Shown here in pieces: positions 2,775 through 64,000 of a DNA stretch of 64,000 nucleotides. The position numbers and the translations under genes were made by a program. The DNA is taken from positions 1-64,000 of the forward strand of contig JAUVXR010000007.1 of assembly GCA_030603495.1 (NCBI GenBank), written 5' to 3'. Every line of letters starts with the position of its first letter. Positions within the stretch are counted from its first letter, which is position 1. Origin of the DNA: a bacterium (GTDB lineage Bacteria > Armatimonadota > Zipacnadia > Zipacnadales > Zipacnadaceae). The notes under the pieces were generated by a model that was not told the origin of the DNA, made no database searches, and saw only the letters and a list, made by a program, of their open reading frames with translations.

Positions 2775-4148
2775 ATGTGGAGCCGAAGCACGAAGATGAA
2801 GGTTCTGGTGGGGATCCTGAGCTTATTCCTGGTAGCGTTAGCATTGGGGGTTTGGTTCGGCGCGCGAGCCCTGCGGCGAACGGAAGCTGGGTCCGCTGCG
2901 TGGGATTTCGGTAAGATCATGCTCACTTCTGGAAAAAAGATCCACGCTGACCTTGAGGGTGAACTGCAGAAGATCAAGGAAGCGAGTGAACCGTTGACAC
3001 TGGCCGACCTTGCGTTGCCGTCGGTGGCCGATGATGAGAATGCAGCAGTGATTTACGCTAAGGCTTTTGAGCAGCTTAATCTGAGCGATTCAGACATAGA
3101 AATGCTTGGTAGTCTTACGCGCAACCATGTAGCTGTGCCCGACAGGGAGATACCGCTTGCTGAACTCGGCCGCATTGTCGAGAGGAACCCCGCTGCGATA
3201 GAGCTGCTAGTAGAGGCCGCCAAGCGGCCAAGATGCCGTTTTGCTATTGACTGGGATGCGGGCATAGAAACTGAGTTGCCGCACTTGCCACAATTGAAGA
3301 ATAGTGCTTACCTGCTAGCCGCAAAGATTCTCTGGCATGCTGACCGTAACCAAATGAGACAGGCGCTGGCGACCGCCCGGGTGAGTCTGGCGATAGGTGA
3401 CAGCGTTGCCGACGAGGGGACGGTGATCTCACAGTTGTTTCGCTATGCTATAACTGGGACTACCCTCACGGTCGTGCAATATGCTCTGCACGAGCGGTCG
3501 GCGCCCACAGGGTCATGCCGCAAGCTGTACGGGTATCTGGGTGAGATGGAGTTCATGGACTCGTTTGTTGAGACAATGAGCAGGGAGCGAGTAATGGGCA
3601 TTTCGGGCTTCGCGCTCTGGCGTCAACAGATCACCGAAAAGAAAGCCGAGCGCGGCGGGTTCTCTTGGACACCATTAGACAAACTAACCGACTATGACCA
3701 AGTACAGTACCTTCGGTTGATGTCCGAGGTGATAGCTGTTGCTGAGAGTCCGTACCGAAACTCACGGGAAGCATTCAGTGACATCAAACGGCGTCTAAGC
3801 GAGGATGTGCCTGTGTGTCTCTTAACCAGAACGCTGCTGCCTGTTACTTGGGCTCCTGTCATCAAGCGCGATGTGATCATCGCCCGCGTCGGCCTCGCGC
3901 AGGTGGCGCTGGCGCTGAAGGCCTACAAGAACAAGAAGGGCCGGTATCCCGAGTCATTGGCCAAGCTGCGGGAGGTCATTGACTGGGGGAAGTTGCCCGA
4001 AGACCCGTTCAGCGCTGAGGATTTTATCTACCGGCACGAGGGCGAGGGCTTCCTGGTTTACAGTATTGGGGTCAACCTAATAGACGATGGCGGGCAGGTC
4101 GAGCAGGACTGGGAGGAAGGCGACATCGTCTGGCGGTGCGAGAGGTAG
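2775..4148 (+). CDS. Membrane-anchored hypothetical protein with pseudopilin-like C-terminus
   Basis: 457 aa, family not recognised. The N-terminus carries one hydrophobic segment (KVLVGILSLFLVALALGVWF), which fits a signal anchor; the rest is probably extracytoplasmic. Helical central region. The last 90 residues contain RVGLAQVALALKAYKNKKGR, then YPESLAKL, DPFSAEDFIYRHEGEGF and VYSIGVN. This pattern resembles the C-terminal part of type II secretion G-type pseudopilins, which turns up in planctomycete-like hypothetical proteins. An alternative start is ATG 2796; the GGAGG at 2753-2757 is rather far from either start. It sits between leuC and leuD on the same strand, but nothing ties it to leucine synthesis. 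Confidence 0.8.
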   Translation: MWSRSTKMKVLVGILSLFLVALALGVWFGARALRRTEAGSAAWDFGKIMLTSGKKIHADLEGELQKIKEASEPLTLADLALPSVADDENAAVIYAKAFEQLNLSDSDIEMLGSLTRNHVAVPDREIPLAELGRIVERNPAAIELLVEAAKRPRCRFAIDWDAGIETELPHLPQLKNSAYLLAAKILWHADRNQMRQALATARVSLAIGDSVADEGTVISQLFRYAITGTTLTVVQYALHERSAPTGSCRKLYGYLGEMEFMDSFVETMSRERVMGISGFALWRQQITEKKAERGGFSWTPLDKLTDYDQVQYLRLMSEVIAVAESPYRNSREAFSDIKRRLSEDVPVCLLTRTLLPVTWAPVIKRDVIIARVGLAQVALALKAYKNKKGRYPESLAKLREVIDWGKLPEDPFSAEDFIYRHEGEGFLVYSIGVNLIDDGGQVEQDWEEGDIVWRCER

Positions 4149-59092: not shown

Positions 59093-59337
59093 GCAGCCTG
59101 TGGAGTTAGCGCAACTCCGGTCGCGAGCGGTGCCTGTCGGTGTATTGTCGAAGAAAACCTGGCAGCAAGAGAAGGTTGCCTCGCCAGCAAAACAGAATAC
59201 GAATCCGAGGGAGGGGCTGGCGCGACCGGTCTGGTGCAGGGCAGGAGAGCGGATGATTGCTCCTGTGGGCCATGCATTTCCGCTGGAGTCGTTTGCAGAG
59301 ATCGTCTATTCCGTGGATGGAGGTTATCGCCACTACC

Positions 59338-60006
59338 ATGATCATCAGCGAAAGCAAGCCTCTTGAAGAAGTACTGGAAATGCTGGCGGGGTACGATAGC
59401 GTGTTTGTCGTCGGTTGCGGGGAATGTGCTACCGAGTGTCAGACCGGAGGCGAGTACGAGGTCAACGAGATTGGCAAAATGCTTACTGAGGCGGGCAAGA
59501 CCGTCACTGGGAGCCTGGTACCGGATGTCACGTGCCAGGTTCTCGACACTGGCCGTCTACTGCGTAAGAGCAAAGAAGCCGTCAGTCGCGCCGATGTTAT
59601 CCTTGTGATAGCGTGTGGTGGGGGCGCCCAAGCTGTGGCGGCATCCGTGGACAAACCCGTTGTCTCCGGTGTGGACACTTTATTCTTGGGTGACACCGTT
59701 CGCCACGGCCAGTTCTACGAGTGGTGTTCCGCCTGCGGTAGTTGCGTTCTTCACGAGTACGGCGGAATCTGTCCGGTCACGCGTTGTCCTAAGGGCCAGG
59801 TTCACGGACCGTGCGGTGGCACCACTGACGAGGGCAAGTGCGAGGTCAACTCGGAGAATGACTGTGTTTGGGTGCTTATCTGGGAGCGTCTGGATGAGAT
59901 CGGCGCCAACAAGGATGCGGTTGCCTCTGCTGCGCACGAACCCCGGGATTATAGTGTCCACCAACGGCCAGCCTCCCGCATCTTCGAGCCGCGGCGAACC
60001 AAGTAG
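59338..60006 (+). CDS. metV: MetV-like methylenetetrahydrofolate reductase partner (zinc/Fe-S protein)
   Basis: 222 aa. Matches the MetV/MTHFR C-terminal family of acetogens and methylotrophs: SVFVVGCGECATECQTGGEY (Cys-rich), VTGSLVPDVTCQVLDTGRLL, VILVIACGGGAQAVAASVD, then WCSACGSCVLHEYGGICPVT and RCPKGQVHGPCGGTTDEGKC. MetV forms a complex with MetF that reduces methylene-THF using ferredoxin or NADH. ATG 59338 was chosen for the family start, with GGAGG about 14 nt upstream. No metF adjacent. The preceding 245 bases hold nothing I recognise. Next upstream of the CODH region. Confidence 0.88.
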   Translation: MIISESKPLEEVLEMLAGYDSVFVVGCGECATECQTGGEYEVNEIGKMLTEAGKTVTGSLVPDVTCQVLDTGRLLRKSKEAVSRADVILVIACGGGAQAVAASVDKPVVSGVDTLFLGDTVRHGQFYEWCSACGSCVLHEYGGICPVTRCPKGQVHGPCGGTTDEGKCEVNSENDCVWVLIWERLDEIGANKDAVASAAHEPRDYSVHQRPASRIFEPRRTK

Positions 60007-60066
60007 CGATCGCATAGCCACCCTGGCCAGGCTGGCGCAAGGCTCCCATTGAGCACAATTTGTTGC

Positions 60067-60095
60067 TTGACAGAGGCCCGAGTTCAACATATAAT
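60067..60095 (+). promoter_or_regulatory. Exact-consensus promoter upstream of a predicted RNA
   Basis: TTGACA (60067-60072), 17-nt spacer, TATAAT (60090-60095): both hexamers and the spacer are ideal. Start expected at about 60102. Downstream is not a gene but a leader ending in a terminator at 60229-60254. Confidence 0.75.
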
Positions 60096-60101
60096 GTGCT
60101 A

Positions 60102-60254
60102 GCAGCCTTGCTATATGATTGACTCGGTCTACCAAGGACGACGTGGAGCGCTGTGTGGCTCTGATTCTGTACGGATAATGCCATAATATATGTAGCCTGG
60201 CTGGATTGTGTGGCTCAGATAGCAGCTTGGGAGCAATCTCGCTCCCCCTTTTTT
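60102..60254 (+). ncRNA. Predicted ~150-nt small RNA or attenuator leader upstream of cooS
   Basis: Bounded by the ideal promoter and an intrinsic terminator. Its 5' end can form a hairpin TAGCA-GCCT-TGCTA (60100-60113). The same TTGCTAT can instead pair with ATAGCAG at 60219-60225, because TAGCAGC occurs twice (60100 and 60220); this long-range pairing would close the molecule. A CCAAG (60132-60136) can pair with CTTGG (60226-60230), which would disturb the terminator's first bases. No known riboswitch or 6S/SRP core motif was recognised. The start codon of cooS is 240 nt further on. Confidence 0.55.
60229..60254 (+). terminator. Intrinsic terminator of the cooS upstream RNA
   Basis: GGGAGC (60229-60234), loop AATCTC, GCTCCC (60241-60246), CC and six T (60249-60254). 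A textbook rho-independent terminator. Confidence 0.8.
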
Positions 60255-60333
60255 GTCTGCGGGTTTACGACAGAGCGATGCTGTCTGCCTGACGCTACGC
60301 GATGACCGGCAGCCACAGGAAGAGCCCAATGCT

Positions 60334-60459
60334 ATGCAGCTACGTGAACGTGTCCACGAGATAGTGAAGAACAATCAGGGCGGAGGGCTCGTCATAACAA
60401 GGAGACTGCTAACGATGGTGTGCCTTGCACGTGGGTGCCATCACTGTTCGGCGCTATAA
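60334..60459 (+). CDS. Possible Cys/His-rich micro-ORF
   Basis: 41 codons (MQLRERVHEIVKNNQ...LLTMVCLARGCHHCSAL) ending 37 nt before cooS. AGGAAGAG lies about 13 nt upstream of the ATG. The tail CLARGCHHC could bind metal. Nothing else supports it: no homology recalled and no clear ribosome spacing. It fills part of the 240 bases between the predicted terminator and cooS that otherwise hold no gene. Confidence 0.25.
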   Translation: MQLRERVHEIVKNNQGGGLVITRRLLTMVCLARGCHHCSAL

Positions 60460-60496
60460 CCACCCTCGCATGACCAATAAGAAGGATTATGATACG

Positions 60497-62428
60497 ATGA
60501 AGGAACCCAGCAGGCGTTCAGTTGATTCAGCTGCTCAACAGATGATTGCCCGGGCTGCGGAGGACCAAGTGGATCTGGTTTGGGACCGGTACGAGGCGAT
60601 GCAGCCGCAGTGCGGTTTCGGCCAATTGGGGATATGCTGCCGCATCTGCCATATGGGTCCATGTCGGGTTGATCCGTTCGGTGATGGCCCCCAGGAGGGT
60701 GTCTGCGGGGCGGACGCCAATGCTATCGCCGCTCGTAACCTGGTGCGGATGATTGCCGCCGGAGCCGCCGCTCATTCCGACCACGGCCGGGATGTCGCCC
60801 TGGCACTGCTGGAGGCCGCGCGTAACCCCGATAGCGGTTACAAAATCCGGGATCCACAGAAGCTGGCGGTGATCGCCCAGGAATACGGACTGGACACGGA
60901 GGGCAAATCGGTGCCCGAAATCGCCGAGGCAGTGGCACAACAAGCGCTGGCCGAGTTTGGGCAGCAGGAGGGCGAGTTGAAGTTCGCACTTCGTGCCCCC
61001 GCGTCTCGGGTCAAGGTGTGGCGTGAGCGGGGGCTCATGCCCCGGGGGATAGACCGCGAAATTGTGGAGTTGATGCATCAGACTGCCATGGGTGTGGATG
61101 CTGACTACAGAAACATAATCAAGCAGGGCATGCGTGCAGCGCTGGCCGATGGTTGGGGCGGCTCGATGATTGCCACTGACTTGCAGGACGTTTTGTTCGG
61201 CTCGCCGCAGCCGATCCGTGCCAAGACCAACCTGGGCGTGTTGAAAGAGGATCATGTCAACATCGTGGTTCACGGTCATGAACCTGTCCTATCCGAGATG
61301 ATAGTCGAGGCGGCGCGGGATTCTGAGCTGCTTGCGCGCGCCCGAGAGCTGGGTGCAGATGGCATAAACCTGGCGGGCCAGTGTTGCACGGGCAACGAGC
61401 TGCTTATGCGCAAGGGCATTCCTTCCGCCGGGACTTTCCTGCATCAGGAGCTGGCCATAATGACCGGTGCAGTTGATGCCATGGTGGTGGATGTCCAGTG
61501 TGTTATGCCACGGCTTGCCGAGCTGACCCAGCGGTTTCACACGCAACTGTTGACCACTTCACGCAAGGCCAAGATTCCCCATGTGCAGCACCTGGAATTC
61601 CGGGAGGGTCAGGCGCTGACGACTGCGAAGGAAATCGTGTCAGTGGGCGTCGAGAACTTTGCCAACCGCAACGGTCAACGCGTCCAAATCCCGGCGGAAC
61701 AGATGGACCTGATCGCCGGCTTCACGGCAGAATATGTCAATACGCTGCTCGGTGGCCGCTTCCGGCCGTCTTATCGCCCGCTGAACGATGCGATTATGAC
61801 GGGGCGGATACGAGGAGTTGCCGGGGTAGTCGGCTGCGAGAATCCGCAGGTCCCGCAGGGCTCTGGCCACATCGCCATGAGCAAAGAACTTATCAAGAAT
61901 GATGTGCTGGTCGTCGTCACCGGCTGCTCGGCCCTGGCTGATGCCCGAGCGGGACTACTGTGCCCCGAGGCAGCGCTGGAATGGGCGGGCGAGGGTCTCA
62001 AGGAGGTCTGTGAAGCTATCGGGATGCCACCGGTCTTGCACGTTGGCTCCTGCGTGGATAACAGTCGCATTTTGATTGCCTGCACCAACATGGTGACGGA
62101 GGGCGGGCTGGGCGAGGACATAAGTGACTTGCCCGTGGCCGGCGCGGCGCCGGAGTGGATGTCAGAGAAGGCGATCACTATCGGATACTATGTGGTAGCA
62201 TCGGGCATCTACACGGTTTTTGGAACGCCACACAATGTGCTTGGGGCACCAGATTTGCACAAGCTGGTGGTGGACGAGCTTGAAGAGATGGTCGGGGCCC
62301 GCTTTGACTTCGAGCCCGACCCAATCAAGGCAGCGCACATGATGATTGCTCACATGGACAAAAAACGCGCTGCGCTGGGTCTGGACGAGATGATGTACGA
62401 GCAGGCAGCGCCGGTGGCCACCAGCTAG
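60497..62428 (+). CDS. cooS: Anaerobic carbon-monoxide dehydrogenase catalytic subunit
   Basis: Interconverts CO2 and CO for acetyl-CoA synthase and passes electrons to ferredoxin. 643 aa. The N-terminal cluster motif Cys39-x7-Cys47-Cys48-xx-Cys51-x4-Cys56 (CGFGQLGICCRICHMGPC) supplies the D and B [4Fe-4S] clusters, positions matching CooS. The C cluster (NiFe4S4) ligands lie in IVVHGHEPVLSE (His), GQCCTGNE, VVTGCSALADARAGLLCPEA and LHVGSCVDNSRIL. ATG 60497 has AAGGA upstream; ATG 60470 is an alternative. Next are an Fe-S protein and acsB, so this is the AcsA-type enzyme of the Wood-Ljungdahl pathway. Confidence 0.96.
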   Translation: MKEPSRRSVDSAAQQMIARAAEDQVDLVWDRYEAMQPQCGFGQLGICCRICHMGPCRVDPFGDGPQEGVCGADANAIAARNLVRMIAAGAAAHSDHGRDVALALLEAARNPDSGYKIRDPQKLAVIAQEYGLDTEGKSVPEIAEAVAQQALAEFGQQEGELKFALRAPASRVKVWRERGLMPRGIDREIVELMHQTAMGVDADYRNIIKQGMRAALADGWGGSMIATDLQDVLFGSPQPIRAKTNLGVLKEDHVNIVVHGHEPVLSEMIVEAARDSELLARARELGADGINLAGQCCTGNELLMRKGIPSAGTFLHQELAIMTGAVDAMVVDVQCVMPRLAELTQRFHTQLLTTSRKAKIPHVQHLEFREGQALTTAKEIVSVGVENFANRNGQRVQIPAEQMDLIAGFTAEYVNTLLGGRFRPSYRPLNDAIMTGRIRGVAGVVGCENPQVPQGSGHIAMSKELIKNDVLVVVTGCSALADARAGLLCPEAALEWAGEGLKEVCEAIGMPPVLHVGSCVDNSRILIACTNMVTEGGLGEDISDLPVAGAAPEWMSEKAITIGYYVVASGIYTVFGTPHNVLGAPDLHKLVVDELEEMVGARFDFEPDPIKAAHMMIAHMDKKRAALGLDEMMYEQAAPVATS

Positions 62429-62477: not shown

Positions 62478-63227
62478 ATGCCGCGAGTCATCATCGTAGA
62501 TGTCGAAAAATGTGTGGGCTGTCACAGTTGTGAGGTGGCTTGTGCTATAGCCCATTCGACAGCAAAGACGCTGGTCGAGGCGATGCAAGAGCAGCCACCG
62601 CCCCAGCCGAGTGTCGCGGTGGTGGCGGTTGGCGAGGCAGCGGTGCCGCTACAGTGTCGCCACTGCGAAGATGCGCCGTGCGTGCAGGTATGCCCAAGAG
62701 ATGCCTTGCAGCGCCCGGACCCTGAGGGGCCCGTACTAGTGGACCACGAGCTGTGCACGGGTTGCCAGGCGTGCGTCATTGTCTGTCCGTTCGGCATGAT
62801 TACAATGAGTAGTGACGGTAAGTCGGTAATCAAGTGCGATCTGTGCATCGAGCGGCTGGGTCGAGGTGAGCAGCCGGCATGTGTGGAGGCGTGCCCGACA
62901 GGGTCTCTACAATTGCTGGACACTGCCGACCCAGCGGCCCAGGAGCAGCGCCAAGCCGTCGAGGTCATTATGACAGCACCGGTGCAACAAGACACGCCGG
63001 GGGCTGGCGACCTGTCGGCAGGCGATACGGGGGGCGCAGACGGCCAGTGCAAGTTCTGTGGGGAGCTCGTCGCCCGCCCGGCGCGGATCAAGCGCCTGGC
63101 CGACGACCTGGGAATTGATGCTCAGGAGCTTTGCATCTGTCAGAAGTGCCGGCGAGCGAGATATTCCCAGCTTTTGTGCAAGTCAGAAGCCATGGGCAAT
63201 CCTGCCGACGGGCGGGGCGAGGCTTGA
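62478..63227 (+). CDS. CooF-like 4Fe-4S protein with C-terminal zinc ribbon
   Basis: 249 aa. Four Cys-rich Fe-S blocks: EKCVGCHSCEVACAIAH, QCRHCEDAPCVQVCPRDA, ELCTGCQACVIVCPFGM and KCDLCIERLGRGEQPACVEA with CPTG, giving up to four [4Fe-4S] clusters as in HycB/CooF electron carriers. After a Gln/Ala linker, the C-terminus has CKFCGELVARPARIKRLADD, then CICQKCRRARYS, a small metal-binding ribbon not usual in CooF. It probably shuttles electrons between CooS and acceptors such as ferredoxin or complex I. It starts 49 nt after cooS behind AGAGGCAAGG. Confidence 0.88.
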   Translation: MPRVIIVDVEKCVGCHSCEVACAIAHSTAKTLVEAMQEQPPPQPSVAVVAVGEAAVPLQCRHCEDAPCVQVCPRDALQRPDPEGPVLVDHELCTGCQACVIVCPFGMITMSSDGKSVIKCDLCIERLGRGEQPACVEACPTGSLQLLDTADPAAQEQRQAVEVIMTAPVQQDTPGAGDLSAGDTGGADGQCKFCGELVARPARIKRLADDLGIDAQELCICQKCRRARYSQLLCKSEAMGNPADGRGEA

Positions 63228-63307
63228 CTGGCAGCAGATGCGCGAGAGGGACTAATGCAGTTGATATCGGACACGAGCGTATGCGCTCTTGAGGAGGTCC
63301 GCCCGAG

Positions 63308-64000
63308 ATGTCCAAGCTGGTAGCAGCAGCCGCAGTACGAGGATCGCATGACGTAGTGAGCCGAGTTGATAAGCGGCTTACGCAGGCTCTGGAGAAGTTC
63401 GGTGAAGACCAGGAGGTCGGCTTCCCGGGAACTGCCTTTTACCTGCCGATGGCTTATGCGTTGCTCGGCGCCGAGGTGGAAACGCTCGGCGGGATACGCG
63501 AGGTGCTGGAGGAAACCAAGACCTTCCTGCATGAAGAGCCTACCGAGAAGCTCTGGCTGCCCTATTTGAGCAGTGCGCTAGACTCGGGGATCGCGACTCT
63601 GCTGGGGGAGGAGATGCTGGCCGCGCTGCGCTACTTGTACGGCGAGGAGCCCCGCGAGGGCTGGCACGGCTTCATCTCCGACACGATACTGCGTAGCCTG
63701 GGGATTCAGTTGGTAGACGGCCGCCTGCCCGGCTTCGCGGCGATAGTCGGCGCTGCCCCTGACGTCGAAACGGCCGAATACATCATCCGGGAGCTGCAAA
63801 AGCGCAGCATTCTCACCTTCCTGATTGGCAACCACGAAGGCCAGACCATGCGCGACCAGCTCATCGAGGCGAACGTCCTGCCCGATGACATCATTGAGAA
63901 TCCGGCCAGTGGCTGGGATATATACATTGTGCCCCTGGGCCCGGATACCGAATCCATAATCTATGCCCTCAATTGGGCGATGCGCGGCGCGCTGACCTTT
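63308..64000 (+). CDS. acsB: CO-methylating acetyl-CoA synthase, N-terminal part
   Basis: Joins CO, a methyl group and CoA to acetyl-CoA. Cut by the right edge after 231 codons; the frame is open to the end. The N-terminal CODH-tunnel domain is visible: GFPGTAFYLPMAYALLGAEV, WLPYLSSALDSGIATLLGEE, LPGFAAIVGAAPDVETAEYI, then IYIVPLGPDTESIIYALNWA, which match AcsB 'GFAAIVGAAP' and neighbouring blocks. The A-cluster Cys and nickel domain lie beyond the window. ATG 63308 follows GAGGAGG. Together with cooS and metV it shows a bacterial Wood-Ljungdahl carbonyl branch. Confidence 0.93.
   Translation, partial: MSKLVAAAAVRGSHDVVSRVDKRLTQALEKFGEDQEVGFPGTAFYLPMAYALLGAEVETLGGIREVLEETKTFLHEEPTEKLWLPYLSSALDSGIATLLGEEMLAALRYLYGEEPREGWHGFISDTILRSLGIQLVDGRLPGFAAIVGAAPDVETAEYIIRELQKRSILTFLIGNHEGQTMRDQLIEANVLPDDIIENPASGWDIYIVPLGPDTESIIYALNWAMRGALTF

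Follow-up and report, generated by a model that had tools for sequence, protein, structure and literature searches.

A conserved promoter-to-terminator unit upstream of cooS in a Zipacnadia bacterium, a candidate attenuating leader of the CODH/ACS genes

What is encoded by a stretch of DNA that has an ideal promoter at one end, an intrinsic terminator at the other and no recognisable gene between, and that lies just before the CODH/ACS genes? This arrangement was found in the 64,000-nt window analysed here (positions 1 to 64,000 of contig JAUVXR010000007.1), which comes from an uncultured sediment bacterium of the Armatimonadota (Ca. Zipacnadia). An initial sequence-only reading had proposed either a free small RNA or a conditional terminator governing the operon. 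Bacterial control of the carbonyl branch of the Wood-Ljungdahl pathway is poorly understood, and the locus raises the further question of whether CODH/ACS, a metal-rich and costly enzyme of central importance, is commonly controlled at the RNA level.

The gene downstream of the element is cooS as had been claimed (TIGR01702; Table 1). We moved its start from 60425/60470 to the ATG at 60497, because AAGAAGGA lies upstream of this codon and because the N-terminus then matches the MTAPEERSIDSAAQQM of the congeners; the terminator is therefore 243 nt away from the start codon. The CODH/ACS cluster is complete; it runs past the window with acsC, acsV, acsD, acsE and a MinD/ArsA-type ATPase gene that is probably cooC. 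The nearest named relatives of the window cooS are in Zipacnadia metagenome-assembled genomes, and Ca. Zipacnadia is a class reported to have the Wood-Ljungdahl pathway (PMC10290634). The upstream MetV-like gene is probably translated from a start further in than 59257, and the intergenic gap between metV and cooS is about 490 nt. As a separate observation, frames for a large serine recombinase (CcrB-like), a tyrosine-integrase-like protein and a primase-like protein lie just past the CODH/ACS cluster (L111:11400-18600), which suggests an integrated element adjoining it.

Table 1. Features of the metV-cooS region, in window coordinates
Feature	Position	Strand	Evidence or remark
MetV-like gene (methylenetetrahydrofolate reductase C-terminal), upstream	59257..60006	+	PF12225 1.5e-30
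Promoter upstream flank, possible regulator site	60007..60066	+	72-84% identity, three congeners
Sigma-70 promoter TTGACA-17-TATAAT	60067..60095	+	12/12, 17-nt spacer
DNA inverted repeat CCGAGTTCAACATATA / TATATGATTGACTCGG, possible operator	60078..60127	.	13/16, around -10 and +1
5' hairpin TAGCA-GCCT-TGCTA	60100..60113	+	invariant, three species
Predicted leader transcript, ~154 nt	60101..60254	+	84-87% identity in G004 and G006
Alternative long-range pairing, TTGCTAT (60108-60114) with ATAGCAG (60219-60225)	60108..60225	+	invariant
Hairpin H2, (C/U)GGAG(C/U)-loop-GCUC(C/U)G, then AUUYUG	60144..60163	+	four congeners found to carry cooS
Intrinsic terminator GGGAGC-AATCTC-GCTCCC-CC-TTTTTT	60229..60254	+	6-bp stem + T6
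Spacer to cooS, diverged	60255..60496	+	about 43-51% identity
cooS/acsA, Ni-CODH catalytic subunit, first gene of the cluster	60497..62428	+	PF03063; TIGR01702 663 bits
4Fe-4S protein and start of acsB	62478..64000	+	

The promoter is without mismatch and has the optimal spacer described for it (12/12, 17 nt, at 60067-60095). Perfect promoters number 48 in the genome, while the reversed control pattern gives 0, so the match is not due to chance. In congener G006 the promoter including its spacer is 100% identical. We note separately that one perfect promoter, TTGACAGCAAGCCCCCC..CTATAAT, is repeated in this genome (G000 contigs C22:88, C24:25845, C27:908, C28:29742, C32:123, C34:87, C38:90 and C60:137037); as it often lies near contig starts, it is probably part of a repeat at which the assembly breaks. 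The element under study is itself single-copy in the genome, and a repeated or mobile element was rejected as an explanation for it.

Conservation delimits the element sharply. A BLASTN search of 46 genomes of the class returned it from just two congeners, G006 (88%) and G004 (84%), and a covariance model run on 291 genomes of the phylum matched only the same three species; the covariance search suggested for related genomes thus recovered the element in both congeners, and no wider homologues were found by either search. Positions 60101-60254 align to G004 and G006 with zero indels, whereas fourfold sites are only 42-45% identical to the window in cooS and 37-40% in metV, which marks these species as distant from one another. 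The conserved block extends from the upstream flank of the promoter (72-84%) through the terminator, and identity between the window and its relatives drops to about 43-51% directly past the T-run. An element at 84-88% identity beside fourfold sites at 37-45%, with this collapse at the T-run, reflects strong selection on a non-coding unit whose end is the terminator. One caution is that the G006 and G004 spacers past the terminator are 94% identical to each other, so that this pair has either conserved or recently exchanged it.

The intrinsic terminator claimed at 60229-60254 can be confirmed in the sequence. Taken as a pattern alone, it occurs no more often than chance would give (1 found against 2.4 expected from 4-kb shuffles), and its support must therefore come from comparison. 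The terminator is conserved in the two congeners, and its stem is 6/6 paired in all three species, with one compensatory change (A-U to G-C) and two one-sided changes. Compensatory change in homologues had been named as a check on the element; the stem supplies one instance, but this covariation is one pair only, and among three close sequences 167/500 shuffles do equally well.

The element is also linked to cooS rather than to its upstream neighbor. In G006, metV and the element are ~1.5 kb apart, with a membrane-protein gene in the interval, and the element stays beside cooS; the insertion itself (L040:1352-2900) carries a 418-aa membrane-protein frame, and the metV end GCGGCGCACCAAGTAGCGATCGGACA is repeated on both sides of it. 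G001 lacks metV at this position; its cooS leader has a TTGACA-17-TAAGAT promoter and, at an unchanged distance from it, hairpin H2, with a 3' side closely matching those of G006 and G004. In all four congeners in which cooS was found, H2 is present a single time, within the cooS leader, and every change in it keeps the pairing. In the three orthologues its arms (60144-60149 with 60158-60163) are paired throughout, with three one-sided changes. A search of 46 genomes with the H2 pattern gave five matches, namely these four cooS leaders of the genus and one other; as the pattern was derived from those same four leaders, only the one additional match is informative.

Position assigns the promoter to cooS. 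In a sister genus, the cooS genes of G013 and G011 each follow directly on a perfect promoter, the spacers being 17 and 18 nt. In the window spacer the only promoters scoring at least 8/12 are two in the last ~30-35 nt before the start codon, and the corresponding spacers of G006 and G004 have none at this threshold. By position, the promoter at 60067-60095 appears to be the cooS promoter, with the terminator inside its leader.

We favor, with modest confidence, the reading of the element as a cis-acting cooS leader with a probably conditional terminator. Of the two original proposals it is the conditional terminator that the comparison favors, with the free small RNA the less favored. A promoter and an intrinsic terminator lie upstream of cooS and in line with it, and both are conserved in G004 and G006. 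Transcription would start near 60101, and a large share of the predicted transcripts would end at the 60254 terminator, termination being partial and regulated. Full expression of the CODH/ACS operon would need read-through, which would feed cooS. Formation of the terminator hairpin may be prevented by a change in the conserved leader fold, brought about by a metabolite, by a protein or by pausing of the polymerase. The leader would most likely be an RNA brake on transcription of the CODH/ACS genes.

Several observations count against the favored reading. First, 243 nt from terminator to start codon is long for an attenuator. Second, G001 has no T-run or terminator at the homologous place; a hairpin followed by a U-rich stretch (UUUUGCUUCUGUU) does lie just upstream of its cooS (L043:4935-4975), and may be that genome's own terminator. 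Third, the predicted global folds differ among the three orthologues, and the leader folds with an energy close to that of shuffled sequences (z -0.95 for the window, -1.29 for L040 and +0.95 for L041). An 11-bp helix (60110-60120 with 60204-60214) is paired in all three species and has three one-sided changes, all consistent with pairing; the fold predicted for G006 contains it, that predicted for the window does not.

These differences bear on the switch that had been proposed, in which two exclusive folds compete. TAGCAGC does occur at both ends of the predicted transcript (60100-60106 and 60220-60226). TTGCTAT can pair with either TAGCA copy in the three species, both pairings being invariant, and it is only for the window sequence that the partition function prefers the long-range one. 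The second proposed pairing fared worse: CCAAG (60132-60136) and CTTGG (60226-60230) are present, but one pair is missing in both relatives and the predicted probability is ~0, and we rejected it as an antiterminator. Swapping of H2 arms with terminator arms is allowed by sequence (GGAGC/GCUCC in both), and was likewise rejected at a predicted probability of ~0. When a conserved antiterminator was sought in the three orthologues, the candidates were either invariant or broken. An exclusive-fold switch of the leader thus seems only partly supported, the homologues being three close sequences from one genus. A direct repeat within the leader, TGTGTGGCTC(T/A)GAT at 60152-60165 and 60207-60220, was also noted; in G006 its two copies carry the same G to A substitution.

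A free, trans-acting sRNA of ~154 nt is the foremost alternative to the cooS leader. It would account for the perfect promoter, the clean terminator and the conservation halting at the T-run, and the unconserved spacer between window and relatives makes the element a discrete unit. cooS would then be transcribed either from a separate spacer promoter of a non-sigma-70 type or by reading from the metV side. We consider this unlikely, if well worth keeping in view, given that each of the four congeners with a cooS hit has the element next to that gene, that no copy away from cooS was found in the 291 phylum genomes, and that no good promoter follows the terminator in G004 and G006. Furthermore, the homologous promoter and hairpin of G001, without a terminator at that place, would fall inside a cooS mRNA leader.

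A second alternative puts control at the DNA level, with a regulator bound at an operator, the terminator acting as a leaky filter or insulator, and a leader RNA that senses nothing. The inverted repeat invites this explanation: its arms (60078-60093 with 60112-60127) overlap the -10 and +1, it is conserved in two congeners, and an equally good repeat arose in only 7/1000 shuffles of 60041-60160. The promoter spacer and upstream flank are conserved, and the stability of the RNA is not unusual. Set against this, a second genomic copy of the dyad half-site consensus was sought at up to 2 mismatches and none was found, so a regulon built on the dyad was rejected; nor does DNA-level control explain the conservation of the transcribed part or the compensatory change in the terminator stem. 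We regard it as rather improbable.

Control of the terminator by ribosome stalling on a leader peptide is far less probable. The claim that no gene lies between promoter and terminator holds, in that the same-strand frames found there overlap and have no ribosome binding site. Some appeal remains in the sole ATG-started frame (23 aa, from 60115), which together with a TTG frame overlaps the conserved hairpin, and in the lack of indels across three sequences; but the ATG is ATA in G004 and the variable columns have no clear triplet period, and the leader peptide was rejected.

The known housekeeping RNAs, 6S in particular, can be given almost no credence: the element resembles 6S RNA (RF00013) in size, in promoter strength and in the rod-like minimum-energy fold of the window sequence, but it has no score to that model, and the genome has its own 6S at G000:C10:70377-70552 (RF00013, 78 bits), as do most relatives by similar matches. 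More broadly, the earlier failure to place the element in a known RNA family was borne out, as a search of it against Rfam 15 gave no match even at E<=10, and the cooS leaders of the congeners also had no Rfam match.

Attenuation is a well-known class of mechanism; it is the leader sequence that is new. With attenuated leaders of the riboswitch, T-box and protein-bound types the element shares a strong promoter, a conserved leader and an intrinsic terminator before an operon; it differs in having no known aptamer (Rfam), a candidate antiterminator only, and a terminator 243 nt from the gene. The Methanosarcina cdh (CODH/ACS) operon reportedly has a long 5' leader that controls expression after initiation, according to work by Anderson and colleagues from 2009 in J Bacteriol. 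The shared trait is a long CODH/ACS 5' leader, likened here by description; cdh is archaeal, whereas the T6 terminator here is of bacterial type. In Acetobacterium bakii, the 5'-UTRs of acetogenesis genes are long and structured, and that of cooC1 altered reporter mRNA levels (PMC6239172), a precedent for leaders mattering here. The likeness lies in the long leaders of acetogenesis genes; for these Wood-Ljungdahl 5'-UTRs thermoregulation by mRNA stability was proposed, and a search for temperature-dependent attenuation of acetogenesis genes gave no clear sign of it (PMC6239172), which counts somewhat against the favored reading. In the literature covered, our search for RNA controlling bacterial CODH by termination found none, and no described RNA family matched the CODH/ACS leaders of this lineage in the searches reported here. 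It is conceivable, though we hold it doubtful, that this leader founds a new class of riboswitch or protein-responsive RNA, one that governs CODH/ACS transcription by termination in response to CO, nickel, corrinoid, folate or redox state, and that unrelated leader RNAs serve the same purpose in sister genera.

The leaders of the sister genus (g3; L042:4358-4520 and L104, minus strand, 3412-3578) are differently built and more conserved, and together with the Ca. Zipacnadia leader they provide precise sequences for testing RNA-level control. Over the 168 columns to the start codon, G013 and G011 share 94% identity in their cooS leaders, against only 37% at cooS fourfold sites. They have no clear sequence similarity to the window leader, match no Rfam family and were found in no other of the 291 genomes. 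At their 5' end the hairpins GGCAGC/GCUGCC and GGCCGGC/GCCGGCC (the latter followed by UUUAAUAAU) are mutually exclusive, and the former has one compensatory G-C to A-U change. In a further genus (G010), no gene is evident between a tRNA gene and cooS, and a strong terminator-like hairpin, ATCCCAT...ATGGGAT, TTTTCGTTTT (L107:1256-1300), lies about 200 nt before cooS.
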